The translations under genes were made by a program, and so were the position numbers. From Variovorax sp. PAMC26660 (GTDB taxonomy: Bacteria > Pseudomonadota > Gammaproteobacteria > Burkholderiales > Burkholderiaceae_C), in NCBI RefSeq assembly GCF_014302995.1, contig NZ_CP060295.1:1984001-2048000 (forward strand): DNA of 64,000 nt, in the 5' to 3' direction. This document shows positions 2,573-63,504 of the stretch, one piece after another. The notes under the pieces were generated by a model, which worked only from the letters and a program-made list of their open reading frames with translations, did no database searches and was not told the origin of the DNA. Every line of letters begins with the position of its first letter. Within the stretch, counting starts at the first letter, position 1.

Positions 2573-2822
2573 GTTCAGGGCGACGCTCCCGCCGACGCGG
2601 TGCTTTTTTTCGCGAATGTCCCCCGCTTCGCTCCTCCTTTATTTAGCTAAAAGCCCCGTATCGGCGCGAGCGTTGGACAGAGCGGTGGTTGTTCAGCGGT
2701 ACACCAGCAGCGTGCCCCTGTGCGAATGACGCCAGGTGCTCCCCGCAGCGAAATAAAGGAGGAGCGAAGCGGGGGACATTCGCACAGGGGAGCACCTGGC
2801 GTCATTCGCACTCGCCCCGAAC
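2573..2822 (-). repeat. Family-1 composite palindromic repeat, copy 1 (reverse orientation)
   Basis: Fills most of the 335-bp gap between the Bug receptor and the CoA-transferase. Ends are GTTCAGGGCG (2573-2582) and CGCCCCGAAC (2813-2822), a near-perfect terminal inverted repeat. Inside are two modules. One has perfect 24-bp arms at 2721-2744 and 2787-2810 around the conserved core; the other carries the same core in inverse orientation (2611-2644) between arms that begin at GCCGACGCGG. The core reads AAATAAAGGAGGAGCG on one strand, a perfect Shine-Dalgarno-like stretch with no start codon behind it. Copies 2, 3 and 4 lie at 11288, 41217 and 63245 in the opposite orientation. Confidence 0.9.
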
Positions 2823-2858
2823 AAACGCACAAACGAACGAAAAACAAGGACCACTGAA

Positions 2859-4010
2859 ATGACACAAGCCCCCCAAGGCGCCCTCACAGGCATCCGCGTC
2901 CTCGACATCTCCCGCATCCTCGGCGGCCCGTACTGCGGCCAGATCCTCGGTGACCACGGCGCCGACGTGCTCAAAGTCGAACCACCGCAGGGCGACGACA
3001 CGCGCACCTGGGGCCCGCCTTTCAAGGAAGGCGTCGCCTCGTACTACCACGGGCTCAACCGCAACAAGCGCGTGCAGCACCTGGACTTCTCGACAGAGGA
3101 AGGCCGCGAAGCGCTGTTCGCCTTGGTGGCCGAAGCCGACGTGCTGATCGAGAACTTCAAGACCGGCACGATGGAGCGCTGGGGCATCGGCTACGAGACG
3201 CTGTCGCAACGCTTTCCGCGCCTCGTGTGGTGCCGCGTGTCGGGCTTCGGCGCCGATGGTCCGTTGGGCGCGCTGCCCGGCTACGACGCGGCGGTGCAGG
3301 CCATGACCGGCATCATGAGCATCAATGGCGAAGCCGATGGCGGACCGCTGCGCGTGGGCCTTCCTGTCGTCGACATGGTGACGGGGCTGAACGCGGTGAT
3401 CGGCGTGCTGCTCGCGCTGCAGGAACGTCAGCGCAGCGGGCGCGGGCAGTTCGTTGAAGCGGCGCTGTACGACAGCGGCCTGTCGCTGCTGCATCCGCAT
3501 GCGGCCAACTGGTTCATGGACGGCACAGCGCCGCGCCGCACGGGCAATGCGCACCCCAACATCTATCCCTACGACGCGCTGGCCACCGGCACCGCCCCGG
3601 TGTTCGTGGCGGTGGGCAACGACCGGCAGTTCGCGAGCCTGTGCCGCTGCATCGGCCTGCCCGAGCTGGCCGACGATCCGCTCTACCGCACGGCCGGTGC
3701 GCGCTCGGTGCATCGCGACGGGCTCAAGCAGCGGCTCGAAGCGGCGATGGCCGTCTTCGATGGCCGCGAACTGGTCGATCTGCTGATGGCGGCCGGTGTG
3801 CCCGCCGCGCCCGTGCTGTCGGTGGCGGATGCGCTGCAGCATCCACACACGCTGCACCGCGAGATGGTGGTCGAGATGGAAGACGGCTACCAGGGCATCG
3901 GCGCGCCGGTGAAGCTGAGCCGCACGCCGGCCAGCTACCGCCATGTGCCGCTCACACCGGGCAGCGCGTTCCTACCCTTGGACGAAGGTGCCGCTTCAGC
4001 GAAAGACTGA
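2859..4010 (+). CDS. CaiB/BaiF family (class III) CoA-transferase
   Basis: 383-aa class III CoA-transferase, which moves CoA between two carboxylic acids through an aspartyl-CoA intermediate. The N-terminal LTGIRVLDISRILGGP and ADVLKVEPPQGDDTR are family hallmarks, and the expected catalytic aspartate is Asp143 in GYDAAVQAMTG. Length is typical (380-400 aa). The start ATG follows AAGGACCACTGAA. Because a repeat element separates it from the Bug gene, cotranscription is possible but not assured. Its 3' end overlaps the convergent UDP-glucose dehydrogenase gene by 15 bp. Confidence 0.93.
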   Translation: MTQAPQGALTGIRVLDISRILGGPYCGQILGDHGADVLKVEPPQGDDTRTWGPPFKEGVASYYHGLNRNKRVQHLDFSTEEGREALFALVAEADVLIENFKTGTMERWGIGYETLSQRFPRLVWCRVSGFGADGPLGALPGYDAAVQAMTGIMSINGEADGGPLRVGLPVVDMVTGLNAVIGVLLALQERQRSGRGQFVEAALYDSGLSLLHPHAANWFMDGTAPRRTGNAHPNIYPYDALATGTAPVFVAVGNDRQFASLCRCIGLPELADDPLYRTAGARSVHRDGLKQRLEAAMAVFDGRELVDLLMAAGVPAAPVLSVADALQHPHTLHREMVVEMEDGYQGIGAPVKLSRTPASYRHVPLTPGSAFLPLDEGAASAKD

Positions 4011-5336
4011 GCGGCCCCTGCCGATGCCGTAGTACGCGATGCCGGCGGCTTCGACTTCGGCGGCGTCATAGAGGTTGCGGCCGTCGAAGATGGCGGGCGT
4101 CTTCAACGTGTTCGCAATGCGTGCGAAGTCGGGCTGGCGGAATTCGCGCCATTCGGTCACCAGCGCGAGCGCATCGGCGCCCTGCAGCGTCTCGTCGGCA
4201 GTCGCACACCAGCGCACGTCGCCGCGCTCGCCGACGATGGCGCGCGCATTCGCCATCGCCGCCGGGTCGTAGACCTGCACGCATGCGCCGGCCGCCCACA
4301 GCCGCTCCAGCAGCACGAGGCTGGGTGCATCGCGCATATCGTCGGTGTCGGGCTTGAAGGCCAATCCCCACAGAGCGATGGTCCTGTTGGCGATGCGGCC
4401 CTCGAAGTGGTGCGTCATCAGATCGAACAGCCGTCCCTTCTGTTCGTGGTTGACGGCCTCGACCGCCGAGAGAATGCGCAGCGCATGGCCATCGCGGTCG
4501 GCCGCATGCCGCAGCGCCCGCACATCCTTGGCAAGGCACGAGCCGCCGTAGCCTGCGCCCGCCTGCAGGAAGTCGGGGCCGATGCGGCGGTCGGCACCGA
4601 TGCCGCGCCGCACCATCTCGATGTCGGCACCCGCCTGCTCGGCCACGCGCGCCATTTCGTTCATGAAGCTGATGCGGGTGGCGAGCATCGCGTTGGCGGC
4701 GTACTTGGTGAGTTCGGCCGAGCGGCGGTCCATCACGAGCAGTTGCCGTTCCGGGTCGCGCACGAAAGGCGCGTAGAGCCGGGTCAGCAGGTCGATGGCC
4801 CACGGGTCTTGCGAGCCGATCACCACACGGTCGGGCTGGCGGCCATCGCGCACGGCCGCGCCTTCGCGCAGGAACTCGGGGTTGACCGCCACCGCGATGC
4901 GATGCGGCGCACCACGGTGCGAAAGCTCGCTCTGCATCGCAGCCTCGACCTGCTCCGCCGTTCCCACCGGCGCGGTGGACTTGCACACGACCAGCGCGTC
5001 GCGGTCGCGGTGCCGGCCGATGCTGCGCGCCACCGCCATCACATGCTGCAGGTCGACGTCACCCTGTGCATCGGCCGGTGTGTTGACCACGATGAAGAGG
5101 ATGTCGCCATGCAGGCTGGCAACACGCTCGTCGGCGGTGAACCTCAGTCGCCCCGCCGCGATGCCGGCCGCCACCAGCGCTTCCAGATCCGGCTCATGCA
5201 GTGGCATGAGGCCGCGCTGCAAACCCTCGACTCGCGCCGCATCCGCGTCCGCGCACAGCACCTCGTGCCCCGCCTCCGCCAGGCAAGCGGCGAAGCTCAG
5301 GCCCACATAGCCGGCACCGAAGATGCTGACTTTCAT
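3996..5336 (-). CDS. ugd: UDP-glucose 6-dehydrogenase
   Basis: Oxidises UDP-glucose to UDP-glucuronate with two NAD+, supplying acidic sugar for capsule or lipopolysaccharide. 446 aa, starting at the ATG that gives MKVSIFGAGYVGLS; the open frame extends far upstream but without family similarity. The N-terminal Rossmann motif GAGYVG is at residues 7-12, the VNPEFLREG motif near 152, and the catalytic cysteine is Cys267 in GYGGSCLAKD. NPEFLREG and the C-terminal YDPAA segment are standard. It stands divergently from a glycosyltransferase gene 96 bp away, consistent with a polysaccharide cluster. The symbol is by function. Confidence 0.95.
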   Translation of the reverse strand: MKVSIFGAGYVGLSFAACLAEAGHEVLCADADAARVEGLQRGLMPLHEPDLEALVAAGIAAGRLRFTADERVASLHGDILFIVVNTPADAQGDVDLQHVMAVARSIGRHRDRDALVVCKSTAPVGTAEQVEAAMQSELSHRGAPHRIAVAVNPEFLREGAAVRDGRQPDRVVIGSQDPWAIDLLTRLYAPFVRDPERQLLVMDRRSAELTKYAANAMLATRISFMNEMARVAEQAGADIEMVRRGIGADRRIGPDFLQAGAGYGGSCLAKDVRALRHAADRDGHALRILSAVEAVNHEQKGRLFDLMTHHFEGRIANRTIALWGLAFKPDTDDMRDAPSLVLLERLWAAGACVQVYDPAAMANARAIVGERGDVRWCATADETLQGADALALVTEWREFRQPDFARIANTLKTPAIFDGRNLYDAAEVEAAGIAYYGIGRGRSVFR

Positions 5337-5432
5337 GGGTGCCCCCGTTCTTTTTGGCACTGGTGGCGCGCACGGTTGTGCGATAAAAGCGGAATGCAAG
5401 CCTTCAAAACAATGTCCGGACAGGAAAATTCG

Positions 5433-6458
5433 ATGATGCCCGATCAAGTTGCCGCGCGTTGCGCGCTGGTCCTGGAGACCAACAACCTGCGCGGCGGAGC
5501 GGATGCCGAGGCCAAGACAAGCACCAGCCTGCAACGCCTCGTCGCCCTGCTGGCAAGGCAGAAACTTCCGCTGACGGCGCTGGCGCAGGTGGTCGTCACG
5601 CACGACGGACTGAGCGCGGCCACCTGCGATGCGGTGAGCGCGCTCGCGGGCCGCCCGGTCGATTTCGTGCGCATCGATGCCGCCACCGGCTACTACGACG
5701 CCAAGAACGTCGGCTTCGCCGCCACCGATGCGGCCCGCTGCGACCACGTGGTGTTCGCCGATGCCGACTGCCTGCCCGACGACGACTGGCTGCTGCAGAT
5801 GCTGATGCCGCTCACGAAGCCCGACGCGCCCGCCGTGGTGGCCGGCCGTACCAGCTATGCGGCCAGCGTGGTCGGCACCGCGCTGACGACCATCGACTTC
5901 ATGTATTTCCCCAACGGCGATCACGCGGGCGCCACGAGCAACTTCTACGCGAACAACGTGGTCTTCCGGCGCGACGTGTTCGAGCAGCACAGCTACCAAG
6001 CATTGGACGGCGTGTACCGCGCGCACTGCCAGGTGCTGGGCATGCGGCTGAAGACGGCCGGCGTGCCCATTCACTACGCAGCGGCGGCCCACACCGAACA
6101 CCGCCTGCCCGACACGCGCGCCGAAGCGCTCAAGCTGCGCTGGATGCGCGGGCAGGACACTTATTCGCTCACGCCGCACCTGCTGCGCAGCTATGTGTCG
6201 GCGCGCTGGCAGTGGCTCGCGAAGAGCGGCCCTATCGGGCCGCTGTGCGTGCTGTTCACGCGGCTGGGCTTCAGCGTGCGCGCGCTCAATCACCAGGACT
6301 TGCCCCCCCTGCACGGCCTGCGCTGGGTGGCGGGCGTGGCGTTGATCCTGGGGTTCTCGGCGGTCGACATGCTGGGCGCGTTCGCGCGTGGCATCGGCCT
6401 GCACACGACAGGAAAAACAAACGCAGACGCGCAAGCGCTCTCGTATCACCGGCCTTGA
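5433..6458 (+). CDS. Family 2-like glycosyltransferase
   Basis: Predicted GT-A sugar transferase of about 341 aa. The DADCLPDDDW stretch is the metal-binding DxD-type region and VGFAATDAARCDHVVFADAD precedes it as in GT2 enzymes; SNFYANNVVFRR resembles the acceptor segment. Near the C-terminus a hydrophobic stretch (VAGVALILGFSAVDMLGAF) suggests membrane attachment. Several in-frame starts exist (5394, 5412, 5433, 5436); 5433 is chosen because AGGA lies 7 bp before it. It heads a plus-strand series of four closely packed genes, with UDP-glucose dehydrogenase on the other strand. Donor and acceptor sugars are unknown. Confidence 0.75.
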   Translation: MMPDQVAARCALVLETNNLRGGADAEAKTSTSLQRLVALLARQKLPLTALAQVVVTHDGLSAATCDAVSALAGRPVDFVRIDAATGYYDAKNVGFAATDAARCDHVVFADADCLPDDDWLLQMLMPLTKPDAPAVVAGRTSYAASVVGTALTTIDFMYFPNGDHAGATSNFYANNVVFRRDVFEQHSYQALDGVYRAHCQVLGMRLKTAGVPIHYAAAAHTEHRLPDTRAEALKLRWMRGQDTYSLTPHLLRSYVSARWQWLAKSGPIGPLCVLFTRLGFSVRALNHQDLPPLHGLRWVAGVALILGFSAVDMLGAFARGIGLHTTGKTNADAQALSYHRP

Positions 6459-6490
6459 TGGCTCCATCTAGAAAAACAACAAACAAGATC

Positions 6491-7498
6491 ATGCAAATCC
6501 GCTCTCTGCTTTCCGTGCGCCATGTCGCCCTGGGCCTCGCGCTCGCAGGTGCCTTCACCGTTGCCAGTGCCGCCGACTTCACCGGCCGCGGTGTCTTCAA
6601 CTTCAAGTCCGACAGCGGCTGCCCCTTCGGAGCACTCGCTGCCGCCAGCGACTGCAACCGCCTCGCGCTGGACGACGCCGACACACGCGCCGCGCTCGAC
6701 AGCGCTGCGCACACCATCCGCTTCACGAACACGCACAGCTATGGCGAGAAAACCATCGTGGGCGACGTGCTGCTGCAAGGCTCCGGCCAGGCGCGCAGCG
6801 GCCAGCGCGTGCCACTGACCTTTCATGCACTGCTGAGCCGCTCGGGCACCGACTGGTCGGTGAGCAGCCACGCGCATTCGCCCATCGGCGACGAGTTCGG
6901 CGACATCCGCATCGATCCGTACCAGGTCGTCGTGAATGACGGCAACGCCGAGCGCGTGGTGCTCACGCCCGCGCAGATCAGCGAAGCGCTGGCCAAGCCC
7001 TCGCTGACCGCGCGCCTTGCCAATGTGCTGGTGCAAGTGGACGACAACCGCACCGGCGGCGCGAAGGATGCCGACATCACCATCGGGCTGGGGCTGAGCA
7101 AGGCCTCGAAGTCGGTGGCGCGTGCGCGCTTCCACGCACCGGCGGCCAAGGGGCGCGAGCTGGCAGCAGCCATGCAGCAAGGCAACTGGACGCTGGAACT
7201 GCAGGCCCTGAGCGGCAAGATCCCGCGCCAGGTGGTGCAGCGCGATTTGTTCCTGTACGGGCTCGAATCGCAGTCGCTGCTGCAACCGCTGTTGCAGCGG
7301 GGCTTTCGCAAGAACGAGAAGCTGGTGCTCGGCGCCATCAACGGCAAGGGCTATGTGCGCTACGACGGCCAGCAGCGCGAATTCGCGGGTGCCGATGCAG
7401 CCGCGCGTGCCTTCCTGCAGGACAGCTTCATCGGCCTCGTGCTGGGCTGGCAGCAACAGCAGCCGCAGGCCGTGACGACCAAGGCCGATGGACGCTGA
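6491..7498 (+). CDS. Secreted protein of unknown function in the polysaccharide cluster
   Basis: 335-aa protein with a clear Sec signal peptide (hydrophobic segment about residues 10-26, cleavage after VASA), so periplasmic or surface-exposed. I do not recognise a domain. After the signal the sequence begins DFTGRGVFNFKSDSGCPFG with two cysteines within about 12 residues (SGCPF and SDCNRL), possibly a disulfide. The rest is rich in beta-strand-like alternation and ends in a Q-rich tail. It starts 32 bp after the glycosyltransferase and its end overlaps the next gene by 11 bp, so it is almost certainly cotranscribed with both. Confidence 0.7.
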   Translation: MQIRSLLSVRHVALGLALAGAFTVASAADFTGRGVFNFKSDSGCPFGALAAASDCNRLALDDADTRAALDSAAHTIRFTNTHSYGEKTIVGDVLLQGSGQARSGQRVPLTFHALLSRSGTDWSVSSHAHSPIGDEFGDIRIDPYQVVVNDGNAERVVLTPAQISEALAKPSLTARLANVLVQVDDNRTGGAKDADITIGLGLSKASKSVARARFHAPAAKGRELAAAMQQGNWTLELQALSGKIPRQVVQRDLFLYGLESQSLLQPLLQRGFRKNEKLVLGAINGKGYVRYDGQQREFAGADAAARAFLQDSFIGLVLGWQQQQPQAVTTKADGR

Positions 7499-8252
7499 CA
7501 CTTCGTTGATACCGGCAGCCGGCTTCGACTGCCTCGCACCGCCCGTGTTGCGCGGCTGGCCGGCGCTGCAGGCCCGGCTGGTACACCACGTCAAGCGGGC
7601 CGCGCTGCGCCAGTTGCATGCGAGCAATGCGGGCGAGATGCTGCTGCTGCGTTTCTACCTCGTCGGCGAAGAATCGTCCGAGCAGGCGCTGCAGCGCGAG
7701 CTGCGCATCAACCCGCCCGACTGGCTCGCACGCCAGCTTGACCAGCACCTGGCCGACGAGCAACTGCATGCACGCCTTTTCGCCGAAGCCATCGTCGAGC
7801 GCGGCGGCAGCGCGCAGGCCGCCGCATCGCCTGAAGAAGCGCCGCGACCCGACTGGCTGAGCCGCCGCAAGCTCGCACGCTGGCAGGGGCTGATCCGCCA
7901 GCATGCGCCGCACTTCGCGCAGGGCGGTCTGGTGCCGGCCTATGCCATCGGCTTGTCGGCGGAGCAGATGGCTTCGCGCATCCTGCAGCGGCACTGCGCA
8001 CTGATCGGGCCCACGCATGCGCTGCACCCGCTGCTGTCGCGCGTGCTGGCCGATGAAGACCGCCACATCCGCCTGTGCAGCCACACGCTGCAGCGCTGCG
8101 TGGCGCCGCACGAGCAGGCGCGGCTGGCGCAACTGATGCGCGAGGTGCGCGACACCGAGCGCGGCTTCGGCATCACCGGCGCGGTCGGCATGTTCCTCGC
8201 CGGCGTGGCGCTGCGGCTGCGCCCCGGCGCGGCGCGACCGGTGCACGCCTGA
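7488..8252 (+). CDS. Ferritin-like (putative di-iron) protein
   Basis: 254-aa, mostly helical soluble protein with no signal peptide. Carboxylate and histidine residues occur in the spacing of a ferritin-like four-helix di-iron site: a glutamate in NAGEMLLLRFYL, DEQLHARLF near residue 86, and DEDRHIRLC near residue 187. These D/ExxH pairs in two halves support a di-iron oxidase or oxygenase fold, but I cannot name the reaction. It overlaps the secreted-protein gene by 11 bp and is followed after 4 bp by a glycosyltransferase, so its product probably acts on a lipid or sugar intermediate of the same pathway. That role is inference. Confidence 0.6.
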   Translation: MDADTSLIPAAGFDCLAPPVLRGWPALQARLVHHVKRAALRQLHASNAGEMLLLRFYLVGEESSEQALQRELRINPPDWLARQLDQHLADEQLHARLFAEAIVERGGSAQAAASPEEAPRPDWLSRRKLARWQGLIRQHAPHFAQGGLVPAYAIGLSAEQMASRILQRHCALIGPTHALHPLLSRVLADEDRHIRLCSHTLQRCVAPHEQARLAQLMREVRDTERGFGITGAVGMFLAGVALRLRPGAARPVHA

Positions 8253-8256
8253 GTCG

Positions 8257-11287: not shown

Positions 11288-11537
11288 GTTCGGGGCGCGT
11301 GCGAATGACACCGGGTGCTCCCCTCCGCGAATGTCCCCCGCTTCGCTCCTCCTTTATTTCGCTGCGGGGAGCACCCGGCGTCATTCGCACAGGGACACGC
11401 TGCTGGTGGATCGCCGATCAACGACGGCTCTGACCGCTCACGTCGATACGGGGCTCTTTTTCGCGAAATAAAGGAGGAGCGAAGCGGGGGACATTCGCGA
11501 AAAAGAGCACCGTGTCGGCGGGAGCGACGCCCTGAAA
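11288..11537 (+). repeat. Family-1 composite palindromic repeat, copy 2
   Basis: Occupies half of the 505-bp gap 11069-11573; I see no gene in the rest, including 11069-11287. Terminal repeats are GTTCGGGGCG (11288-11297) and CGCCCTGAAA (11528-11537). Module A arms are 11300-11323 and 11366-11389, 24 bp with one mismatch, around a 42-bp loop. Module B spans 11442-11519 and its loop holds the same core in reverse. The two cores form a 37-bp perfect inverted repeat with each other, so the element can fold either as two separate hairpins or as one long one. Confidence 0.92.
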
Positions 11538-11573
11538 AGCACCCCCAACACCAAACAGGCCGCAGACAGCCCC

Positions 11574-39742: not shown

Positions 39743-41188
39743 ATGAACCGCAACCTCACCTCTTCGCCCCTGGGCAACAACCTGCTGCTGCGCACCGACT
39801 CCTACAAGGTGTCGCACTGGATGCAATATCCGCCCGGCACGCAGACGGTGCACAGCTACATCGAATCACGCGGCGGCATCTTCAGCCACTCGCTCTTCTT
39901 CGGCCTGCAGGCTTACCTGCGCGAGTACCTGCAGACGCCGGTGACGTTGGCCGATGTCGATGAAGCCGCCGCGCTCATGGCCGTGCACGGCGAGCCCTTC
40001 AATCGCGAAGGCTGGCTGCGGCTGATCGAGAAGCACGGCGGGCTGATGCCGGTGCGCATCCGCGCCGTGCCCGAAGGCAGCGTGCTGCCGGTGCACAACG
40101 TGCTGGCCACCATCGAGAACACCGATCCCGAATTCTTCTGGGTCACGAGCTTTCTGGAAACCGAATTGCTGCGCGCCATCTGGTATCCGACCACGGTGGC
40201 CACACTGTCGGCTGCCGCGCGCACCACGCTGCTGCGCTATCTGGAGGCAACCTGCGACGACCCCCAAGGGCAGATCGCGTTCAGGCTGCACGACTTCGGC
40301 GCGCGCGGTGTATCGAGCCTCGAATCGGCGGCGCTTGGCGGCATGGCCCACCTGGTCAACTTCATGGGCACCGACACGCTGACCGCGCTGGTGGCGGCGC
40401 GCCGTTATTACGACTGCGACGTGGCGGGCTTCTCGATTCCCGCGGCCGAGCACAGCACCATCACGGGATGGGGCCGCGACCACGAATCCGACGCCTACGG
40501 CAACATGATCGACCAGTTCGGCAAGCCCGGTGCGACCTTCGCGGTGGTGAGCGACAGCTACGACATCTTCAATGCCTGCGCGCGCATCTGGGGCGACGAG
40601 CTGAAGGCGAAGGTGGTGGCCTCGGGCGCGACGCTGGTGGTGCGGCCCGACTCGGGCGACCCGGCCGAAACCACGCTGAAGGTGGCGCAGATATTGGCCG
40701 ACCGCTTCGGCACCACGACCAATGCCAAGGGCTTTCGGGTGCTGAACAACGTACGCATCATCCAGGGCGATGGCGTGAACCTCGACTCGCTGCGGTTGTG
40801 CCTGTCGAACTTCTTCCACAACGGGTTCTCGACGGAGAACATCTCGTTCGGCATGGGCGGTGGGCTGTTGCAGCAAGTGAACCGCGACACGATGCAGTGG
40901 GCGATGAAGTGTTCGGCCATGCAGGTGAACGGCGAGTGGCGCGATGTCTACAAGTCGCCGGTGGGCGATGTAAGCAAGGCATCGAAGAAGGGTCGGCTCG
41001 CACTTGTGCAGAACGCACGCGGCGAGGTGCAGACGTTGCGCGAGGAAACGCTCGCGGCTGGCCAGACCGATCTGCTGCAAACGGTGTTCGAGAACGGGCG
41101 CATCGTGACGAGCACGACCTTCGATGCGATTCGGGAACGCGCGGCCATTGGCGTTAATCAGTTCGTTACCTCGCGCGCTCCGCTCTGA
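39743..41188 (+). CDS. nadV: Nicotinamide phosphoribosyltransferase
   Basis: 481 aa, matching the NAMPT/NadV family rather than the nicotinate enzyme PncB: TDSYKVSHWMQYPPGT at the N-terminus, LHDFGARGVSSLESAALGG, the VAGFSIPAAEHST segment and VVRPDSGDP. It makes NMN from nicotinamide and PRPP; NadM then makes NAD. The two adjacent genes form NAD salvage without deamidation. Translation may be controlled by the hairpin over its ribosome-binding site. Confidence 0.95.
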   Translation: MNRNLTSSPLGNNLLLRTDSYKVSHWMQYPPGTQTVHSYIESRGGIFSHSLFFGLQAYLREYLQTPVTLADVDEAAALMAVHGEPFNREGWLRLIEKHGGLMPVRIRAVPEGSVLPVHNVLATIENTDPEFFWVTSFLETELLRAIWYPTTVATLSAAARTTLLRYLEATCDDPQGQIAFRLHDFGARGVSSLESAALGGMAHLVNFMGTDTLTALVAARRYYDCDVAGFSIPAAEHSTITGWGRDHESDAYGNMIDQFGKPGATFAVVSDSYDIFNACARIWGDELKAKVVASGATLVVRPDSGDPAETTLKVAQILADRFGTTTNAKGFRVLNNVRIIQGDGVNLDSLRLCLSNFFHNGFSTENISFGMGGGLLQQVNRDTMQWAMKCSAMQVNGEWRDVYKSPVGDVSKASKKGRLALVQNARGEVQTLREETLAAGQTDLLQTVFENGRIVTSTTFDAIRERAAIGVNQFVTSRAPL

Positions 41189-41216: not shown

Positions 41217-41469
41217 GTTCGGGGTGCGTGCGAATGACACCAGGAGCTCCCCTCCGCGAATGTCCCCCGCTTCGCTCCTCCTTTATTTCGCTGCGGGGAG
41301 CACCTGGCGTCATTCGCACAGGGGCACGCTGCTGGTGTATCGCCGATCGACCATCGCTCTGTCCAACGCTCGCGCCGATACGGGGCTCTTTTTCGCGAAA
41401 TAAAGGAGGAGCGAAGCGGGGGACATTCGCGAAAAAGAGCACCGTGTCGGCGTGAGCGTCGCCCTGAAC
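41217..41469 (+). repeat. Family-1 composite palindromic repeat, copy 3
   Basis: Most of the 389-bp gap between nadV and the glycosyltransferase gene; the rest shows no gene. Ends are GTTCGGGGTG (41217-41226) and CGCCCTGAAC (41460-41469). Module A arms are 41229-41252 and 41295-41318; module B is 41374-41451. The arms carry CCAGG with CCTGG where copy 2 has CCGGG with CCCGG, so the pair changes together, but one further mismatch exists. Orientation is the same as copies 2 and 4. Confidence 0.92.
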
Positions 41470-41577: not shown

Positions 41578-42732
41578 ATGACCAAACTCCTGATCCTCAG
41601 CGTGAGCGCCGGCAACGGCCACGTGCGTGCAGCACAGGCGCTTGCCGCCACCGCCCAGAACCTCGCCCCGCCCTGCACGGCGGTCCACATCGACGCCATG
41701 GCCCATGTGGCCGGAGGCTTTCGCAAGGTCTACACCGACTGGTACATCCAGCTCGTGAACCGCGCGCCCGACCTCTGGTCGTACCTGCACCAGCGCACCG
41801 ACGTCACGCCGCACCATGCGCCTTCGCAACGGCTGCGCCGCGGCATCGAGCGCCTGAGCACCGGCGCACTGGTGCGCGAAATCCGCCGCGAGAAACCCGA
41901 CGCAGTGATCTGCACCCACTTCTTGCCGGCCGAACTGCTGATGCGCGAGCGCAACCGGGGCCGCATCGACTACCCCGTGTGGCTGCAGATCACCGACTAC
42001 GACCTGCACAACATGTGGCTGGTGCCGGGCATGGCCGGCTACCTCGCGGCGACCGAAGAAGTGGCCTTCCGGCTGCGGGCTCGCGGCATTCCCGCGGACC
42101 GCATCCACGTGACAGGCATCCCCGTGATGCCTGCCTTCTCCGAGCCTGACGTGCCGGCGCTCGTGCGCCACACCTGCGCCACCGAACTCGGCCTCGACCC
42201 CGCGCGCCCCATCCTGCTAATGGCCTCGGGCGGTGCCGGCGTGGGCGACCTGCCGAGCATGGTCGAGCGCGTGCTCGGCCTCGGCGGGCATGACGGCAAG
42301 GAGGGCAGCTTCCAGGTCATCGCGGTTGCGGGCCGCAACGTCGAAGCGCAGGGCAAGCTCGAAGCGCTGGCCAAGCGCTATCCGGGTCGCGTGGTGGCCA
42401 TCGGCTTCACCAACGAAATGCACAAGCTCATGGCCGCCGCCGATCTGGTCGTCACCAAGCCCGGTGGCCTCACGGTGTCCGAATGCCTGGCGCTCGGCAA
42501 GCCAATGCTGCTGATCTCGCCCATTCCGGGGCAGGAAGAACACAACGCCGGCTTCCTGATGGAAGAAGGCGCCGCATGGCTCGCCTACGACGCCATCGGC
42601 CTCGACTACAAGGTCGCGCGCCTGATGGCCGACCCCGCCAAGCTCGCGAACATGGCCGCGCGCAGTCGCGCACTCGGCAAGCCGCAGGCCGCGCGGGCCG
42701 TGCTGCAACACGTGCTGGGTGCCGGGGCGTGA
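41578..42732 (+). CDS. Lipid glycosyltransferase, MGDG-synthase/MurG-like
   Basis: 384 aa. N-terminal MGDG-synthase-like acceptor domain (ILSVSAGNGHVRAAQAL, the GNGH motif; YTDWYIQLVNRAPDLW) and a C-terminal GT28-type donor domain with LLMASGGAGVGDLP and VVTKPGGLTVSECLALGKPMLL, plus PGQEEHNAGFL. Relatives add sugar to diacylglycerol or similar lipids. It overlaps the next gene by 4 bp and begins a three-gene unit. Sugar and lipid are not determined. Confidence 0.85.
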   Translation: MTKLLILSVSAGNGHVRAAQALAATAQNLAPPCTAVHIDAMAHVAGGFRKVYTDWYIQLVNRAPDLWSYLHQRTDVTPHHAPSQRLRRGIERLSTGALVREIRREKPDAVICTHFLPAELLMRERNRGRIDYPVWLQITDYDLHNMWLVPGMAGYLAATEEVAFRLRARGIPADRIHVTGIPVMPAFSEPDVPALVRHTCATELGLDPARPILLMASGGAGVGDLPSMVERVLGLGGHDGKEGSFQVIAVAGRNVEAQGKLEALAKRYPGRVVAIGFTNEMHKLMAAADLVVTKPGGLTVSECLALGKPMLLISPIPGQEEHNAGFLMEEGAAWLAYDAIGLDYKVARLMADPAKLANMAARSRALGKPQAARAVLQHVLGAGA

Positions 42733-46906: not shown

Positions 46907-47090
46907 GCCCGGTTCGCGGCACGGCGCGGTCAGCCCCACTGTGCCGGCCCTTCGGGCTTCCCTGCGGTGCTCGCGTCTCGCGGGGTCTCGCAGAACTCGC
47001 TTCGCTCAAACAGCTGCGAGCCCTGATCCGCGAAACGCTGCGCTCCTCGGCGGCCCAGAGGGGCCGACCACGCCGCACCGCGAACCGGGC
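46907..47090. repeat. Family-2 palindrome-borne repeat, left copy
   Basis: The 625-bp gap 46801-47425 has no gene. This 184-bp element has 31-bp arms at 46907-46937 and 47060-47090, differing at four positions, all of which pair as G-U in a minus-strand transcript. The loop carries a 51-bp block (46980-47030) repeated exactly and inverted at 47283-47333. Arms are unrelated to those of the right copy. Confidence 0.85.
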
Positions 47091-47145
47091 TCAGGGGTTT
47101 AGCGAGAACCCTGCACTTCTTTGAGGCCGACTGCCCTCACCCCAA

Positions 47146-47166
47146 CCCTCTCCCAAAGGGAGAGGG
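47146..47166. terminator. Strong 9-bp stem hairpin
   Basis: CCCTCTCCC-AAA-GGGAGAGGG between the two family-2 repeats, within the common CCCTCACCCC block found in many proteobacterial genomes. A likely terminator-like structure, although no long T-run follows. Confidence 0.5.
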
Positions 47167-47220
47167 AGTAATTCGGGGACTCGGCCTCGAAGGTGGGGGA
47201 ATCGACAACCGCTCTGTCCA

Positions 47221-47406
47221 CGGCGATGGGCGCTGTGCCCTTGGGCGGCCGTTGAGGCACCGCCGAGCAGCGCAGCGACGGGCGGATCAGGGCTCGCAGC
47301 TGTTTGAGCGAAGCGAGTTCTGCGAGACCCCGCCCGTCGTAAGCAGCGCAGGGAAGCCCGAAGGGCCGGTGACGTCGGCCGCCCAAGGGCACAGCGCCCA
47401 TCGCCG
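47221..47406. repeat. Family-2 palindrome-borne repeat, right copy
   Basis: 186 bp, 19 bp after the kdpE stop. Perfect 31-bp arms at 47221-47251 and 47376-47406. The core between them (47252-47375) is the inverse of the left copy's core, including the exact 51-bp block, with looser matching outside. Same core in two wholly different palindromes. Confidence 0.88.
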
Positions 47407-47425
47407 CGCCCCGACCGACAAACAG

Positions 47426-53557: not shown

Positions 53558-53570
53558 GATGAAGAACTCC

Positions 53571-55670: not shown

Positions 55671-55680
55671 GGCGGGCTCC

Positions 55681-57480: not shown

Positions 57481-57481
57481 T

Positions 57482-57708: not shown

Positions 57709-57786
57709 ACATCACTCCTGCAAAACAAGACAGGCTTCAGTCTCGGCAGTCGTGCGTAAAACCGGGGGAAAGAGTCGGCAGGCAGG

Positions 57787-57803
57787 CGTAAAGAAACCGT
57801 AAA
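57787..57803 (-). promoter_or_regulatory. Candidate KdpE-binding site of the kdpFABC promoter
   Basis: On the minus strand TTTACGGTTTCTTTACG is a direct repeat of TTTACG with 11-bp spacing, the normal spacing for OmpR-family dimers, in a T-rich tract about 80 bp before the first kdp start codon. It resembles the T-rich KdpE operator known from E. coli kdpFABC (TTTATA-like half-sites). Confidence 0.6.
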
Positions 57804-57825
57804 AATGAGGGCTGGATGCCCGGGC

Positions 57826-57842
57826 TGTGCGCGGCGCGCACA
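57826..57842. promoter_or_regulatory. Perfect 7-bp inverted repeat before the cysteine hydrolase gene
   Basis: TGTGCGC-GGC-GCGCACA in the 229-bp divergent region between kdp and the hydrolase gene, 96 bp before the latter's start. A possible operator; GC-rich palindromes of this length can occur by chance. Confidence 0.3.
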
Positions 57843-57937
57843 ACACTTGTCGCCGTTTCGCCCTGTGCGCGGGCCGGTGCCGTTCCTAGACTTTCCAGCG
57901 TCGCTTTTGACGAATCTCCAGTCTTCAGGAACCCACC

Positions 57938-58645
57938 ATGTTCAACCTCTCCCGCCGCGGGCTCATGGGCGCGCTGGCCTTGCCTTGCGCGGCCGGCATC
58001 GTCGGCACCGCTGCTGCTGCCGCATCGCCCTTCGCACCGACCCCCACCATCCGCGCCATGTCGGGCGCGCAGGCCCGGCGGCAGTTGCCCGGCAACACCA
58101 CGGCCTTGCTGGTGATCGATTTCCAGAACGAATACTTCACCGGCCGCATGCCGATTGCCGACGGATCGGGCGCCATGGCCCAGACGAAGCGCCTCCTGGC
58201 CTGGGCGGACCAACTTGCATTTCCCGTATTCCAGATTCAGCACCTCGCACCGGCGGGCGCCGCCGTGTTCGCTGAAGACGGCAACACCGTCAGCTTCCAC
58301 CCGGACATGCAGCCCAGGGCACGCGATACGGTCGTGCAAAAGCGCACCGTCAGCGTCTTCGCCAGCACCGACATTGCGCGACAGCTGCAATCGGCCCATA
58401 TCCGGACGCTCGTGATCACCGGACTCATGACACATGCCTGCGTGGCCGGCGCGGCCCGCGACGCCGCGGCGCAGGGTTTCGACGTGGTGGTGTCGTCCGA
58501 CGCCACGGCCACCCGGTCGATCCGCCGCGAGAACGGCGACACGGTGTCGCACGACGGCCTGCATCGCGCGGCGCTGGCCGAGATCGAGGACACCTTCGGC
58601 GACGTGCTGACGACCGCGCAGATCCTGGCCTTGGCGGTTGCATGA
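57938..58645 (+). CDS. Isochorismatase-family cysteine hydrolase, probably exported
   Basis: 235 aa. An N-terminal SRRGLMGALALPCAAGIVG with twin arginine and a hydrophobic span suggests Tat export. The hydrolase domain has Asp in VIDFQNEYF, Lys in VQKRTVS and nucleophilic Cys in MTHACV, the triad of the isochorismatase-like fold. Substrates of the family include amides, hydroxamates and isochorismate. The LysR gene follows 39 bp downstream. Confidence 0.85.
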   Translation: MFNLSRRGLMGALALPCAAGIVGTAAAAASPFAPTPTIRAMSGAQARRQLPGNTTALLVIDFQNEYFTGRMPIADGSGAMAQTKRLLAWADQLAFPVFQIQHLAPAGAAVFAEDGNTVSFHPDMQPRARDTVVQKRTVSVFASTDIARQLQSAHIRTLVITGLMTHACVAGAARDAAAQGFDVVVSSDATATRSIRRENGDTVSHDGLHRAALAEIEDTFGDVLTTAQILALAVA

Positions 58646-58684
58646 AAATGCGCGTCATCTGAGGCATCCGCAGGAGGGCGGCGC

Positions 58685-59575
58685 ATGGATCAAGTGAAGG
58701 CGATGCGCGCCTTTCAGCGCATCGCGCAGGCAAAAAGTCTTTCGGCCGCCGCGCAATCGCTGGACACGACGCACTCCAGCCTCTCCCGCCAGCTGCAGGC
58801 GCTGGAGGCGTCGCTCGGCGCACAGCTCGTGCGGCGCGACACCCGCGGCATCACGCTGACCGAAGCGGGAGAGCGCTACCACGCGGCCTGCACGGACATC
58901 CTGTCGCGGCTCGATGCGGCCCATGCGGATGCGGCGGCAGATGGCGGCAAGGCGCCAGCCGGAACGCTGAGGGTGAGCATGCCGCTTTCCATCGCCACGC
59001 TGGACCTGCCGGACTGGCTGCCTGCCTTCCAGGCGCGCCATGCCGGCATCCGGCTGGACGTGGTCTGCACCGACCGCTTCACGAAGCTGGTCGCCGAAGG
59101 CATCGACGTCGCCCTGCGCATCAGTGCAGAACTAGAGGACACCTCCATGATGGCGCGCACGCTGGCGGTCTCCGACATGGTGCTGGTCGCGGCGCCTCGG
59201 TATCTGGTCGGCCACGGCATGCCGCGGACACCGCAAGACCTGTCACGGCACCAGTGCCTGGTTCACAACGGGCCCGAGAATCCGGCGCATTGGACCTTGC
59301 ACATGCACGACGGCCAGCAGCAAACGCTCAGGCCGGATTCGCATTTCGCATGCGACACCGTCACGGCGCTGTACGCAGCCGCCAAATGCGGGCTGGGCAT
59401 CGCAGCGCTGACCTGGCACACGGTCCGTGCCGACCTCCAGGCCGGCACGCTCGTGCGGGTTCTGCCCGACATCACGCTCGGGCAGCGCACCTACACAGCG
59501 CTCTATCCCCGGACACGGCATGTTCCCCCTGCGGTGCGCGCCTTCATCGATTTCGTGGCGACCTGCTACCGATAG
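58685..59575 (+). CDS. LysR-family regulator
   Basis: 296 aa; AGGAGG 6-7 bp before the ATG. Winged helix MRAFQRIAQAKSLSAAAQSLDTTHSSLSRQLQALE, then an inducer domain from about residue 97 (TLRVSMPLSIATLDLPDWLP). CrgA/AphB-like subgroup by pattern. Same strand as the hydrolase gene, which it may control. Confidence 0.93.
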   Translation: MDQVKAMRAFQRIAQAKSLSAAAQSLDTTHSSLSRQLQALEASLGAQLVRRDTRGITLTEAGERYHAACTDILSRLDAAHADAAADGGKAPAGTLRVSMPLSIATLDLPDWLPAFQARHAGIRLDVVCTDRFTKLVAEGIDVALRISAELEDTSMMARTLAVSDMVLVAAPRYLVGHGMPRTPQDLSRHQCLVHNGPENPAHWTLHMHDGQQQTLRPDSHFACDTVTALYAAAKCGLGIAALTWHTVRADLQAGTLVRVLPDITLGQRTYTALYPRTRHVPPAVRAFIDFVATCYR

Positions 59576-59584
59576 GGAGGCCCG

Positions 59585-60703
59585 TCAAAGCTCCCGCTGA
59601 AGCTGCCACGCCTGGTACTTCAGGCTCGCCACCGCGCCGACGACGATGCCGGCGATGGCCGGCAGGCTGGCGATGCTCAAGGTGGAAAAAGCGCTCAGCC
59701 CCTGCCCGATGGTGCAGCCCATGGCCGTGACGCCACCGATGCCCATCAGCACGCCGCCCGTCATGTGGTGCGCGAGATCATTGGTGCCGGCGAAGCCTTC
59801 CCACCTAAATTCGCGCGACCACAGCGCGTGCACCGCGGCGCCCACCACCACGCCGGCCACCGACGCGATGCCCAGGGTCAGCAGCTTGTTGGTGTCGCTG
59901 TAGAACAGCAGCCAGTCGAGCGCATAGGCCACCGGCGTGACGAAGCTCAGCGCCTCGGCGCGGCCGGAGTTGGTGGCCAGAAAGACATGCTCCAGCGTCA
60001 GCGGATGCTCGTCGACCACGGCCCAGTGGCCGCTGAGCCACCACGCCACCACGACCAGCAGGCCGATCAGCAATCCGCCGACAAGGCTGCGCACATCGCG
60101 CGTGTCGCGCCGGCCCCATGCGGCCCATGCGATCAACGCACCGCCGACAACCAGGCCGATGAGAAGGCGCAGCGAAGGTCCATGCACCTGCAGCGCCGCG
60201 GCCAGCACGTCGGGCAGCGAGGCATTGGTCGCCATGTCGACATGCACCTTGTCCACGGTGGCCACGCGCAGCACGGCGGTGATGCCCTTGAGCGTGGCGA
60301 AGGCCGACACGCCCATCACCAGCAGCACCACCAGCGCCTTCAGGCTGCCACCCCCCAGGCGCACCAGCGTCTTGTTGCCGCAGCCCGAGGACAGCACCAT
60401 GCCCGCGCCGAACAACAAACCGCCGACCAGGGCCGCCAGCCAGAGGATGCGGTTCGAGGCATACAACGTCTGGTTCGGATCGACCAGCCCGGCAAAGACC
60501 AGTGCCGAGAAGCCGATCAGCGCGATGCCGCCGGCGGCCGCCCATTGCTTCACGCGCGTCCAGTCGCCCAGGTTCACCACGTCGCTGATCGCGCCCATGG
60601 TGCAGAAACGCGTGGACCGCGCCACGGCGCCGAACACCGCCGACAGCACGAAGGCGGCCACGAGTGCAAGCGACGTGAGAAGAGAAACCTGCTCGATGGA
60701 CAT
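59585..60703 (-). CDS. YeeE/YedE-family sulfur (thiosulfate) transporter
   Basis: 372 aa, about nine or ten membrane spans. Conserved cysteines in STRFCTMGA, SSGCGNKTLVR and AMGCTIGQGLSAF are the thiosulfate-conducting residues in the TsuA group. It follows soxB by 43 bp on the same strand, so thiosulfate or sulfur import for the Sox pathway is likely. Confidence 0.85.
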   Translation of the reverse strand: MSIEQVSLLTSLALVAAFVLSAVFGAVARSTRFCTMGAISDVVNLGDWTRVKQWAAAGGIALIGFSALVFAGLVDPNQTLYASNRILWLAALVGGLLFGAGMVLSSGCGNKTLVRLGGGSLKALVVLLVMGVSAFATLKGITAVLRVATVDKVHVDMATNASLPDVLAAALQVHGPSLRLLIGLVVGGALIAWAAWGRRDTRDVRSLVGGLLIGLLVVVAWWLSGHWAVVDEHPLTLEHVFLATNSGRAEALSFVTPVAYALDWLLFYSDTNKLLTLGIASVAGVVVGAAVHALWSREFRWEGFAGTNDLAHHMTGGVLMGIGGVTAMGCTIGQGLSAFSTLSIASLPAIAGIVVGAVASLKYQAWQLQREL

Positions 60704-60746
60704 GCCGCGATTCTAGGGAGCGGCCTTGCGCACGCCCCAGCTCGAT

Positions 60747-62474
60747 TCAGCTCAAGCCGGGATTCGGTGCGATGTTCTTCAGCACGGGTTCGTCGAGCCG
60801 GCGCGTGGAGATCACCTTGCGCGACTTCAGCCACGGCTCGACCACTTCCCACACCGGCTTGTTGCCGGCCGTGCGCGCTTCTTCGCTCACCGGCGCCCAG
60901 CCCGCGACCTTGTAGCTGCGGCTCGCGTCGATGGGCTTGCCGCCCAGACGCATGTCCTGGATGCGCTGGCCCATGCCTGCGGTCGGGTCGCAGGTGTACT
61001 GCAGCCCGCCCACGCGCACCATGTCGCCGCCCTGCTGGTAGTAGGGGTCGGGGTTGAAGAGGTTGTCGCAGACGTCTTCGAGCACGGTCTTGAGCGTTTC
61101 GCCAGTCATCTGCGTCACGGTGGCGTACGAGTAGGTGGTGGCCGTCATGTCCATCAGCCATTCGCGCGTGATGGGCTGGCCGGGCAGCAGCGAGGTGCCC
61201 CAGCGGAAGCCGGGCGAGAAGGCGATGGGGGCGTCCTGCACCTCCATCAGCGCGTCGAGCAGCAACTGGTCGCCGGTGCCGTTGAAGTTGCCGCGCCGGT
61301 ACAGCGTGCCGTCGGTGTGGGCGAGCGTTTCGGACAGCTTGGCTTCATAAGGTGCGCGAACGCGCGTGATGAGCGCATCCATCTCCTTGTCGGCCGGGAT
61401 CAGGTCGGAGAACACCGGCAGCAGCCGGTAGCGGAAGTCGCTGACCTTCTTGCCCTTGACGTCGAAATCGATCACGCCGAGAAACTTGCCGTTGGAGCCG
61501 CCATTGACCACGATGGTCTTGCCGCCCGCATTGCTCACCAGCGTGGGCATCGGCGTGCCGTCGTGCGTGTGGCCGCCGAGGATGGCGTCGATGCCGGTCA
61601 CGCGGCCGGCCATCTTGAGGTCGACGTCCATGCCGTTGTGCGAGAGAACCACCACCACCTGCGCGCCCTTGCCGCGCGCCTCGTTCACCACGCGCTGCAG
61701 GTTGTCGTCCTGGATGCCGAAGGTCCAGTCGGCCACCATGTAGCGCGGGTTGGCGATGGGCGTGTACGGAAAGGCCTGGCCGACGATGGCGCAGGGCACG
61801 CCGTTGATCTCGCGCATCACGTAGGGCTTGAACACCGGGTCGCCAAAGTCGGCGGTCTTGACGTTCTGCGCGACGAATTCGATTTTTCCGGCGAAGTCTT
61901 TCTCGATGATCTGCTGCACCCGCTCCATGCCGTAAGTGAACTCCCAGTGCCCCGTCATGATGTCGACGCCGAGCAGCTTGCAGGCATCGACCATGTCCTG
62001 CGCCTGCGTCCACAGCGAGGTGGCGGAGCCTTGCCATGTATCGCCACCGTCGAGCAGCAGCGCGCCGGGCCGGCTGGCCTTGAGTTGCTTGACCAGCGTG
62101 GCCAGGTGCGCGAAGCCGCCGACCTTGCCGTAGCGTTGCGCGGCCTTGTCGAAGTCGAGGTACGTGAGCGCATGCGCCATGCGCGTGCCGGGCGGCACGC
62201 CCGCGGCCTTCAGCAGGTGCTCGCCCACCAGGTGCGGCACCTTGCCGCGCATGTGGCCCACGCCGATGTTCACGCCGGGTTCGCGAAAGTACAGCGGCTT
62301 GAGTTGCGCATGGCAATCGGTCATGTGCAGCATCGACACGTTGCCGAAGCGCGGCAGCGCATACATGCTGTCGAGGCCGGCTGCCGCGTCGGCACTGCCG
62401 TAGCGGCCCAGGCCGATGCCGGCAACGGCGCCGGCCCCGAGCATCTGGACGAACTCGCGCTTGGAAAGATTCAT
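60747..62474 (-). CDS. soxB: Sox thiosulfohydrolase SoxB
   Basis: 575-aa periplasmic di-manganese hydrolase that releases sulfate from the SoxYZ carrier. Metal-site motifs are MLHMTDCHAQLKP, LLDGGDTWQGSA, GHWEFTYGME, LSHNGMD and GGHTHDG. The N-terminus SKREFVQMLGAGAVAG is a Tat-like signal with KR instead of RR. It lies 19 bp after soxX. Sox subunits Y, Z, C and D are not in this window. Confidence 0.95.
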   Translation of the reverse strand: MNLSKREFVQMLGAGAVAGIGLGRYGSADAAAGLDSMYALPRFGNVSMLHMTDCHAQLKPLYFREPGVNIGVGHMRGKVPHLVGEHLLKAAGVPPGTRMAHALTYLDFDKAAQRYGKVGGFAHLATLVKQLKASRPGALLLDGGDTWQGSATSLWTQAQDMVDACKLLGVDIMTGHWEFTYGMERVQQIIEKDFAGKIEFVAQNVKTADFGDPVFKPYVMREINGVPCAIVGQAFPYTPIANPRYMVADWTFGIQDDNLQRVVNEARGKGAQVVVVLSHNGMDVDLKMAGRVTGIDAILGGHTHDGTPMPTLVSNAGGKTIVVNGGSNGKFLGVIDFDVKGKKVSDFRYRLLPVFSDLIPADKEMDALITRVRAPYEAKLSETLAHTDGTLYRRGNFNGTGDQLLLDALMEVQDAPIAFSPGFRWGTSLLPGQPITREWLMDMTATTYSYATVTQMTGETLKTVLEDVCDNLFNPDPYYQQGGDMVRVGGLQYTCDPTAGMGQRIQDMRLGGKPIDASRSYKVAGWAPVSEEARTAGNKPVWEVVEPWLKSRKVISTRRLDEPVLKNIAPNPGLS

Positions 62475-62493
62475 GGAGAGAGAAGCCGGGCGT

Positions 62494-63159
62494 TCAGCGG
62501 TTGACGGGAGACTGGGGGTCGAGCAGCAGGCCCATCACGTCGCGGATCTGCTTCTCGTCGAGGATGCCGGAATGGCCGACGCGCGGCATGTTCGAGCAGG
62601 CGTTGTAGGCGCGCGCGTTCCACAGCTTGCCCCAGGTGTATTCGACGATGGGCTTGGCGGCAGCGCTGGCCGGATCGCTCACGCCGCGCAGCTTGCCGTA
62701 GTGGTAGAGGCTGGGGCCGAGCGTGCCGAAGGAGATTTCTTCCTTCGACATCTGGTGGCAGTTGTAGCAATTGCCGCCGTTGACCGAAGCTGTGGCCGTG
62801 GGGGCCGGGTCGGTCCAGGTGAGGCCGCGCCCGTTCTGCGCGAGCTTCTCGCCCTCGCGCCAGTCGCCGATGAACTTGCCATCGGCGGGCCAGCGCACGG
62901 TTTTCAAGTTCGCGGCTTCGATGTCCTTTGCGGTCTTCTCGTCGAGCGGCTTGCCGCTGGCATCGGCTTCGCTGCAGGCGAGGTTGGCCGGGTCTTGCAC
63001 GAGGCGGTCGACCTTGGCGATGCCCTGGTCGCGGAAGGAGCGCTGCAGTGCCTCGGCAGTGAGCTTGTCGAGGTCGGCCGCGCTGTCGACAGACGCGCAC
63101 CCGAACACGGTGAGCGCGCAGGCCACGGCGGCCATGCCAAAGAGGTGATCGACTTTCAT
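62494..63159 (-). CDS. soxX: Sulfur-oxidising cytochrome c SoxX
   Basis: 221 aa. One CxxCH haem site, CYNCH at residues 131-135, and a distal Met in SNMPRVGHSG. It pairs with SoxA to link thiosulfate to SoxYZ. The N-terminus (ALTVFGC) could be a lipoprotein signal with Cys21, unusual for SoxX. AAGGAAC precedes the ATG. A repeat element separates it from soxA. Confidence 0.9.
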   Translation of the reverse strand: MKVDHLFGMAAVACALTVFGCASVDSAADLDKLTAEALQRSFRDQGIAKVDRLVQDPANLACSEADASGKPLDEKTAKDIEAANLKTVRWPADGKFIGDWREGEKLAQNGRGLTWTDPAPTATASVNGGNCYNCHQMSKEEISFGTLGPSLYHYGKLRGVSDPASAAAKPIVEYTWGKLWNARAYNACSNMPRVGHSGILDEKQIRDVMGLLLDPQSPVNR

Positions 63160-63244
63160 TTCTTGTTCCTTCAGTGGCTCATCGCGGTGCGCGTGAGCTT
63201 TGCCGGGGCCGTTGGTATCTAGTGCTCTTGTTCTTGGCGCTGCT

Positions 63245-63504
63245 GTTCAGGGCGTGTGCGAATGACATCGGGTGCTCCCCTCCGCGAATGTCCCCCGGGG
63301 CGCTGCGCGCCCCTCCTCCTTTATTTCGCTGCGGGGAGCACCCGATGCCATTCGCACCTGGACACGCTGCTGGTGATCCTGAGATCAACGACCGCTCTGA
63401 ACGCTCACGCCGATACGGGGCTCTTTTTCGCGAAATAAAGGAGGAGCGAAGCGGGGGACATTCGCGAAAAAGAGCACCGTGTCGGCGTGAGCGACGCCCT
63501 GAAC
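63245..63504 (+). repeat. Family-1 composite palindromic repeat, copy 4 (between soxA and soxX)
   Basis: 260 bp in the 410-bp gap 63160-63569, which has no gene. Ends GTTCAGGGCG and CGCCCTGAAC are perfect, and the inverted match extends outward (63237-63254 against 63495-63512, one mismatch). Module A arms are 63257-63280 and 63333-63356, with ATCGGG opposite CCCGAT where copy 2 has ACCGGG and CCCGGC. Its core A has extra bases (GGGCGCTGCGCGCCCC) that make a further hairpin. Module B is 63409-63486. Confidence 0.92.

Follow-up and report, generated by a model that had tools for sequence, protein, structure and literature searches.

A high-copy palindromic doublet of Variovorax and related bacteria whose hairpin arms covary around a fixed purine loop

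A repetitive extragenic palindrome (REP) doublet, or REPIN, that is served by a REP-associated tyrosine transposase (RAYT) is characterised by the same palindrome flanking the RAYT gene and by abundance only where the RAYT is present. In integron attC sites, structure is kept more than sequence, and the R and L boxes are recombined by the integrase. RU-1, one of the enterobacterial RU repeats, is the same element as ERIC. In REPs, one end of the palindrome carries a defining GTAG (or CGTC) tag (PMC3733652), and the transposase TnpA_REP recognises one single strand only, in a strand-specific manner that involves the GTAG and a bulge (PMC8266576). IS200/IS605 transposases recognise subterminal secondary structures and use single-stranded DNA intermediates (PMC6006769), and the RU repeats, 103–168 bp long and similar to miniature inverted-repeat transposable elements (MITEs), lie in many intergenic regions (PMC2759123). 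Herein, we describe a palindromic doublet that occurs four times in a window of 64,000 nucleotides from Variovorax sp. PAMC26660 (bases 1984001–2048000 of one 7.39 Mb contig; this genome is labelled G000) and that recurs throughout the genome.

Each doublet comprises two hairpin modules, A and B, which stand inverted and back to back, one per strand. Structure-preserving selection on these hairpins is strongly supported by the share of paired arm positions, by a covariation score, by a recount without a filter on the arms and by strand-specific pairing; an earlier note on this DNA had proposed such selection from the four copies of the window. We lean towards reading the element as a mobile doublet of palindromes that resembles REPs and REPINs, is non-autonomous and works as folded single-stranded DNA. 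A copy is about 250 bp long and runs from the foot GTTCRGGGCG through hairpin A, a spacer of 43–45 nt (copies 2–4) and hairpin B to CGCCCTGAAC. The copies and their modules are as follows.

2573..2822, minus strand: copy 1 doublet, reversed relative to the other three (B left, A right)
2607..2652, minus strand: copy 1 module B, damaged, core 2615–2644, arms out of register
2720..2811, plus strand: copy 1 module A hairpin, core 2751–2780, 28/31 arm pairs
11288..11537, plus strand: copy 2 doublet; orthologous site element-free in the seven relatives examined
11298..11391, minus strand: copy 2 module A hairpin, core 11330–11359, 30/32 arm pairs
11435..11526, plus strand: copy 2 module B hairpin, core 11466–11495, 29/31 arm pairs
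41217..41469, plus strand: copy 3 doublet
41227..41320, minus strand: copy 3 module A hairpin, core 41259–41288, 29/32 arm pairs
41366..41459, plus strand: copy 3 module B hairpin, core 41398–41427, 31/32 arm pairs
63245..63504, plus strand: copy 4 doublet
63256..63357, minus strand: copy 4 module A hairpin, with a longer inner hairpin, core 63287–63326, 29/31 arm pairs
63402..63493, plus strand: copy 4 module B hairpin, core 63433–63462, 30/31 arm pairs

All four copies lay where the earlier note had placed them, and reading them bore out its description of modules A and B as having unrelated arms and one common core in opposite orientation. The compensated changes that it quoted for the arms of module A were found on the sequence; module A of copy 3 also carries one uncompensated A·A on the plus strand. 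Its account of the ends and of copy 1 stood with small deviations. The terminal repeats are GTTCRGGGCG and CGCCCTGAAC as described, except that copy 3 starts with GTTCGGGGTG and copy 2 ends with CGCCCTGAAA. The perfect arm pairing that it reported for module A of copy 1 extends over 25 bp; module B of that copy is damaged, and 6 of 8 core-adjacent pairs are kept before the arms fall out of register. Its picture was one of four hairpin doublets, to which a variable inner hairpin, a wide range, a strand polarity, an orientation relative to genes, and filled and empty sites are now added.

To measure covariation, we took from 189 modules a set of 34 that keep at least 17 of 26 arm pairs and differ from one another; two came from G000. 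Changes on both sides were found in 33 of 35 pairs. The fraction of paired cells was 89.3%, compared to 58.7% after shuffling, and the covariation score was 0.713, compared to 0.178 when shuffled and 0.118–0.141 when slid. At each of two arm positions near the core, 20 of the 34 modules were non-standard, with A·G and G·A the most frequent as judged by eye. Since the 34 modules had been selected for pairing, the count was redone without the arm filter and without G000. Across 185 modules from other genomes the median was 23 of 26 pairs, while shuffled partners gave 17, and only 12 modules had fewer than 17 pairs.

The departures from Watson–Crick pairing were strand-specific. On the purine-core strand of the same 185 modules, G·T outnumbered A·C by 388 to 44, a count that omits the two arm positions mentioned above (392 to 45 with them). 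In 88 doublets of G000, modules A and B both leaned to G·T on the purine strand, though they lie on opposite strands; for example, position 17 of A was AT in 39, GC in 38, GT in 9 and AC in 2 doublets, and position 30 of B was GC in 71, GT in 12 and AC in 1. The shared lean of two modules on opposite strands indicates one functional fold per strand, and a one-sided wobble fits the reading of a single strand, not a duplex-only role.

The element is far more abundant than the window suggests. The 12-mer AAATAAAGGAGG occurs 337 times in the genome, whereas its reversed control does not occur, so that the repeat lies far beyond chance. The core pattern was found 164 times on one strand and 165 times on the other, again with no occurrence of the reversed control, and the genome thus holds about 165 doublets. 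With a pairing rule of minus then plus, the 185 modules retrieved from G000 formed 89 pairs and left 7 unpaired, 5 of which show a loose partner at the expected place. The core-to-core spacing was 104–109 nt in 88 of the 89 pairs and 1,701 nt in one. No order was imposed on the modules of other genomes; of their 74 neighbours at most 400 nt apart, 73 were likewise minus then plus, and one was minus then minus. Unrelated A and B arms were also found in Ramlibacter, Pseudorhodoferax, Hydrogenophaga, Lysobacter and Pseudoxanthomonas.

Across genomes, a module is built from AAATAAAGGAGG, a variable inner hairpin and GGGGGACATT, all inside a long variable arm stem that is mostly closed by GCG...CGC. 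Its conserved purine internal loop is formed by AAATAAAGGAGGA and CGGGGGACATT. In G000, the modules end in a conserved 3' foot, CGCCCYGAAC, followed by an A/C-rich, T-poor tail, and the tails point outward. The outward tails of the 88 doublets contain 4.3–8.5% T, compared to 16–20% in a control set of 52 gap ends from the window; the repeat unit is therefore probably longer than 250 bp. A second GCCCYGAA foot was seen in the outward flanks of 3 of 88 doublets on the A side and 6 of 88 on the B side. In the consensus of both G000 modules, a GATCA-type motif lies about 15–20 nt 5' of the hairpin foot, on the spacer side. The AAGGAGG of the element resembles a Shine-Dalgarno sequence, and docking of the ribosome or of CsrA is a conceivable role. 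At one locus (L046, 900–2720), modules A and B are 1.7 kb apart and the spacer is replaced by DNA with small hypothetical open reading frames; in a Xylophilus record (L105, 4602–5378), modules 0.7 kb apart flank what appears by eye to be a small membrane-protein gene. No transposase was seen by eye between the wide-spaced modules of these two loci, and no systematic search for an autonomous parent was made.

Gene context was determined for 88 of the roughly 165 G000 doublets, leaving out the wide-spaced pair and the 7 unpaired modules, with a gene model seeded with genes picked by eye. None of the 88 lay inside a gene. The neighbouring genes were co-directional for 61 doublets, convergent for 25 and divergent for 2, while the gene junctions of the window overall were 39 co-directional, 7 convergent and 6 divergent. 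Of the 64 doublets placed in other genomes, 37 were co-directional, 22 convergent and 2 divergent; the remaining 3 were unclear or fell within a gene call. Eighty-seven doublets have a gene within 500 nt on each side, and among their co-directional cases the direction from A to B opposed transcription in 50 and followed it in 10 (p 1.6e-7). No replication-strand bias was visible, with 35 on the plus and 40 on the minus strand below 3.0 Mb (the origin was not located).

This placement bears on an alternative in which the element acts as RNA. A purine-strand hairpin in the 3' untranslated region of the upstream gene would stabilise the transcript, terminate it or dock a protein, and inverted modules would serve genes on both sides. 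The doublets do lie mostly downstream of stop codons, rarely between divergent genes and never within genes; transcription passes from B to A in 50 of 60 co-directional cases, so that the purine strand of A is present in the sense RNA; and the wobble on the folded strand is compatible with RNA as well. However, B faces a stop codon in 75 of 88 doublets; the purine strand of B is then antisense to the gene concerned, and B nonetheless shows the purine-strand lean, though where the genes converge (25 doublets) the second gene would have that strand as sense. In other genomes, the isolated modules in co-directional settings showed no sense preference (10 sense, 12 antisense). Over the whole window, no curated model of Rfam 15 reached its gathering score. 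With the limit relaxed to E 5, the copy 3 locus had five matches, all below gathering score, and the two that overlapped the element were microRNA models at 20.8 and 20.7 bits, compared to gathering scores of 81 and 70.

The inner hairpin speaks to the same alternative. RNA favours GNRA or UNCG caps. Among the 185 modules outside G000, a single one had a GNRA cap and none had UUCG, while a C-GNA-G loop was present in 154 (143 by a stricter loop count) and in 34 of the 62 distinct inner hairpins. In G000, GCGAAGC formed the inner hairpin of 98 of 102 unique modules. DNA mini-hairpins in which a GNA or GNNA loop sits on two or more G-C pairs have been described as extraordinarily stable, with GCGAAGC melting at 78 C (PMC4686876). 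The loop type, the lack of a sense preference and the wobble lean of B favour DNA over RNA, although none of them is decisive, and we consider an RNA element unlikely.

We next compared the sites of individual copies among relatives. Copy 3 lies between a nadV-like gene (39743–41188) and a glycosyltransferase gene (41578–42732), both named by eye. Thirty loci were retrieved for this site; G000 and 13 relatives were readable across the gap and 16 were not. Full doublets in the same orientation were present in eight relatives (L262–L269). One relative (L274) had lost hairpin A and kept B, one (L271) had an internal deletion that joins the outer arms, and three (L270, L273, L276) had no module. 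Copy 3 is closer to its 87 paralogs in G000 (median identity 93.3%, range 81.7–98.4) than to its eight same-site orthologs (67–82%). The site is therefore old, and its sequence was homogenised, or its copies were replaced in place. The site of copy 1 was filled in two genomes (G075, G009), carried a remnant in two others (G016, G007) and showed no trace in a further three (G069, G063, G033), where only 19–30 nt separate both genes. Copy 2, absent from the seven relatives examined, looks like a recent gain. At four loci (L271, L274, L292, L293) part of the doublet is deleted, and the breakpoints fall within or next to the hairpin arms, a pattern expected of palindrome deletion.

The range of the element was surveyed with a covariance model, R1, built from the 34 diverse modules, whose counts per genome are lower bounds (the highest were 68 in the genus, 16 in the family and 11 in the class). 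In the genus, 49 of 61 genomes held modules (E at most 0.001), and in the family 110 of 250 genomes did, representing 74 of 141 genera (E at most 1e-5); under these strict filters none were detected in the other 12 and 140 genomes. Across the class, 5 of 369 genomes matched: G000 and a second genome of its family, two of another family (f35) and one weak match elsewhere. Of 398 genomes drawn from across the phylum, 4 contained the exact core pattern. Among the matches listed (80 of 120 stretches) were Variovorax, Ramlibacter, Rhodoferax, Hydrogenophaga and Pseudorhodoferax, and further Xylophilus, Lysobacter, Stenotrophomonas, Pseudoxanthomonas and Stagnimonas; one 'Bacillus subtilis' record among the core matches is probably contamination. 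The search of the genome and its relatives that the earlier note had suggested thus turned up the doublet in high number and its modules in many related genera. Only 3 of 72,556 plasmid records matched copy 3, all of them Variovorax replicons of 1.2–1.3 Mb with about 76% identity. A phage origin was rejected, as the exact core was in no viral contig and copy 3 matched no phage record.

Site history and range together bear on whether the host maintains the element as a chromosomal site for protein docking or supercoiling, like bacterial interspersed mosaic elements (BIMEs), with copies kept alike by gene conversion and not by transposition. Such a role would account for the conservation at the copy 3 site, for the homogenisation in G000 and for the REP-like placement. 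Against it stand the genomes of the genus and the family in which no modules were detected, which argue against an essential role, and the apparent new gain of copy 2. We regard this explanation as rather improbable.

Slightly less probable still is that the doublet is the REPIN of a RAYT, a Y1 transposase usually encoded by one gene and present in nearly every genome of the genus. Its layout of two inverted palindromes in many extragenic copies is REPIN-like, and the Y1_Tnp model matched in 58 of 61 genomes of the genus. The score of this hidden Markov model correlated with the module count over the 58 genomes (Spearman 0.59, p 9e-7, uncorrected for kinship), and at least 10 modules were present in 26 of 31 genomes scoring at least 48 bits, compared to 4 of 27 below. 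However, the core was found within about 1.5 kb at none of 12 RAYT loci of the genus, and nowhere in 8.5 kb at the G000 gene. In the family, 48 other genomes were picked by hand: 32 out of 41 that carry 10 modules or more, and 16 out of 140 in which none were detected; Y1_Tnp matched in 24 of the 32 and in 12 of the 16. Four genomes that are 99–100% complete, G035 (1 contig), G532 (2 contigs), G289 and G564 (about 30 contigs), carry at least 11 modules and have no Y1_Tnp match. By eye, a fixed GTAG was not found at the 5' foot, either in the A and B consensus of the 88 G000 doublets or in 50 modules outside the genus, in agreement with the earlier note, which had seen no GTAG-type REP motif in the four copies. 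Since the 12 RAYT loci lack the core and Y1_Tnp presence in the 48 genomes does not track the modules, the element was not classed as a RAYT REPIN; a RAYT as helper is not supported by linkage or by presence and absence, despite the correlation within the genus. In one relative with no modules detected (G489, locus L315), Y1_Tnp matched 20 times, and some of these frames are broken.

It is very improbable that the element is a classical MITE whose terminal inverted repeats serve a DDE transposase. The inverted ends GTTCRGGGCG/CGCCCYGAAC, the length of about 250 bp and the filled and empty sites would suit it, but the target-site duplications for which the earlier note had proposed a search were absent (2–10 bp, in the 53 of 88 copies with both ends placeable, whose tails obscure the true ends), and 8-mers shared within 60 nt outward numbered 4 against 2.1 expected (range 0–6). 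What looks like a 'terminal repeat' is more plausibly one 3' foot that follows each of the two hairpins; it was seen only in a loose form, by eye, in 50 modules outside the genus. Moreover, arms that vary freely around a fixed internal core are the reverse of a terminal-repeat element.

We return to the mobile doublet that works as folded single-stranded DNA. The structure of the doublet, its strand polarity and range, its filled, empty and partly deleted sites, the homogenisation and the gene context are observed; the single-stranded form, the enzyme and the insertion chemistry we infer. On its purine-core strand, each module is a two-level hairpin, in which a long arm stem, free to drift, is followed by the fixed purine internal loop and an inner stem whose usual cap is a GNA triloop, with, in G000, the 3' foot and the outward tail behind it. 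A strand-specific, trans-acting protein may then recognise the folded strand and copy or insert the doublet between genes, for the most part close to their 3' ends. Copies persist for long, are homogenised within the genome and are lost piecemeal by palindrome deletion.

Several points weigh against this reading. No helper enzyme was found for the element. The relatives compared are different species, and neither transposition nor a strain-level event was observed. The conservation at the copy 3 site, with eight full doublets and one half doublet, also fits elements selected by the host. The orientation bias of 50 to 10 relative to transcription is not predicted by a pure DNA model. As G·T and G·U wobble alike, the wobble lean does not by itself separate DNA from RNA. 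The C-GNA-G loop is missing from 28 of the 62 distinct inner hairpins, and many of these 28 are longer ones. Finally, when the whole element (window 41217–41469) is folded as one DNA strand, it is predicted to pair core with core in one long hairpin at -85.3 kcal/mol, compared to -76.0 kcal/mol for a fold restricted to short-range pairs.

More tentatively, the doublet may belong to an unnamed class of single-stranded-DNA replicators of Burkholderiales and Lysobacter-like lineages, moved by a protein unrelated to Y1/RAYT. Such a class would rest on the fixed purine internal loop and the GNA-capped mini-hairpin, and would constitute a second, independent REPIN-like lifestyle. If the helper is not a RAYT, ideas on the spread of bacterial palindromic repeats would have to include a second mechanism. 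The variable arms, fixed loop and stable GNA cap offer a ready set of substrates for finding the helper protein, and the strong covariation together with the one-sided wobble makes the element a natural test of selection on folded single-stranded chromosomal DNA.

The earlier note had recognised no described family, and this holds within Rfam 15 and the open-licence literature: a structured DNA repeat present in more than half of the sampled genera of one family has no curated Rfam match, and no description of it was found in open-licence work on Variovorax, Burkholderiales and Comamonadaceae repeats, REPIN/RAYT or MITEs. Among the matches listed for literal core strings in that literature, all were unrelated by title. 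A search inside PMC3733652 and PMC6006769 found neither these taxa nor a GGAG motif, and PMC2817692 has one unrelated mention of Variovorax. The window also holds an unlike palindromic repeat at 46944–47417, with 110-nt arms that are 90% complementary and 206 nt apart, and a second, 42-nt pair adjoining it.

How does the doublet compare with the known systems? With REPs, BIMEs and REPINs it shares the form of high-copy, extragenic, inverted palindromes that fold into hairpins with internal mismatches, there being about 165 doublets and none of 88 in genes. It differs from them in its two-stem modules of about 92 nt, where REPs measure 20–40 bp (PMC3733652), and in having no fixed GTAG foot and no Y1_Tnp linkage or association. 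IS200/IS605 ends and derived palindrome-associated elements differ from it in that its hairpins are mutually inverted, with no transposase seen by eye between the modules and no Y1 association. Integron attC sites are recognised as a folded single strand (PMC8266576), as proposed here for the doublet, but the core of the present element is an internal purine loop and not a pair of R and L boxes, and it occurs in doublets and not in cassette arrays. The RU repeats, compared by description only, also carry reading frames and occur inside genes (PMC2759123), where none of the 88 G000 doublets lies. With the d(GCGAAGC) mini-hairpins (PMC4686876) the element has in common the GCGAAGC inner hairpin and the GNA loop class; those mini-hairpins are a structural class defined in vitro, whereas the element described here is genomic.

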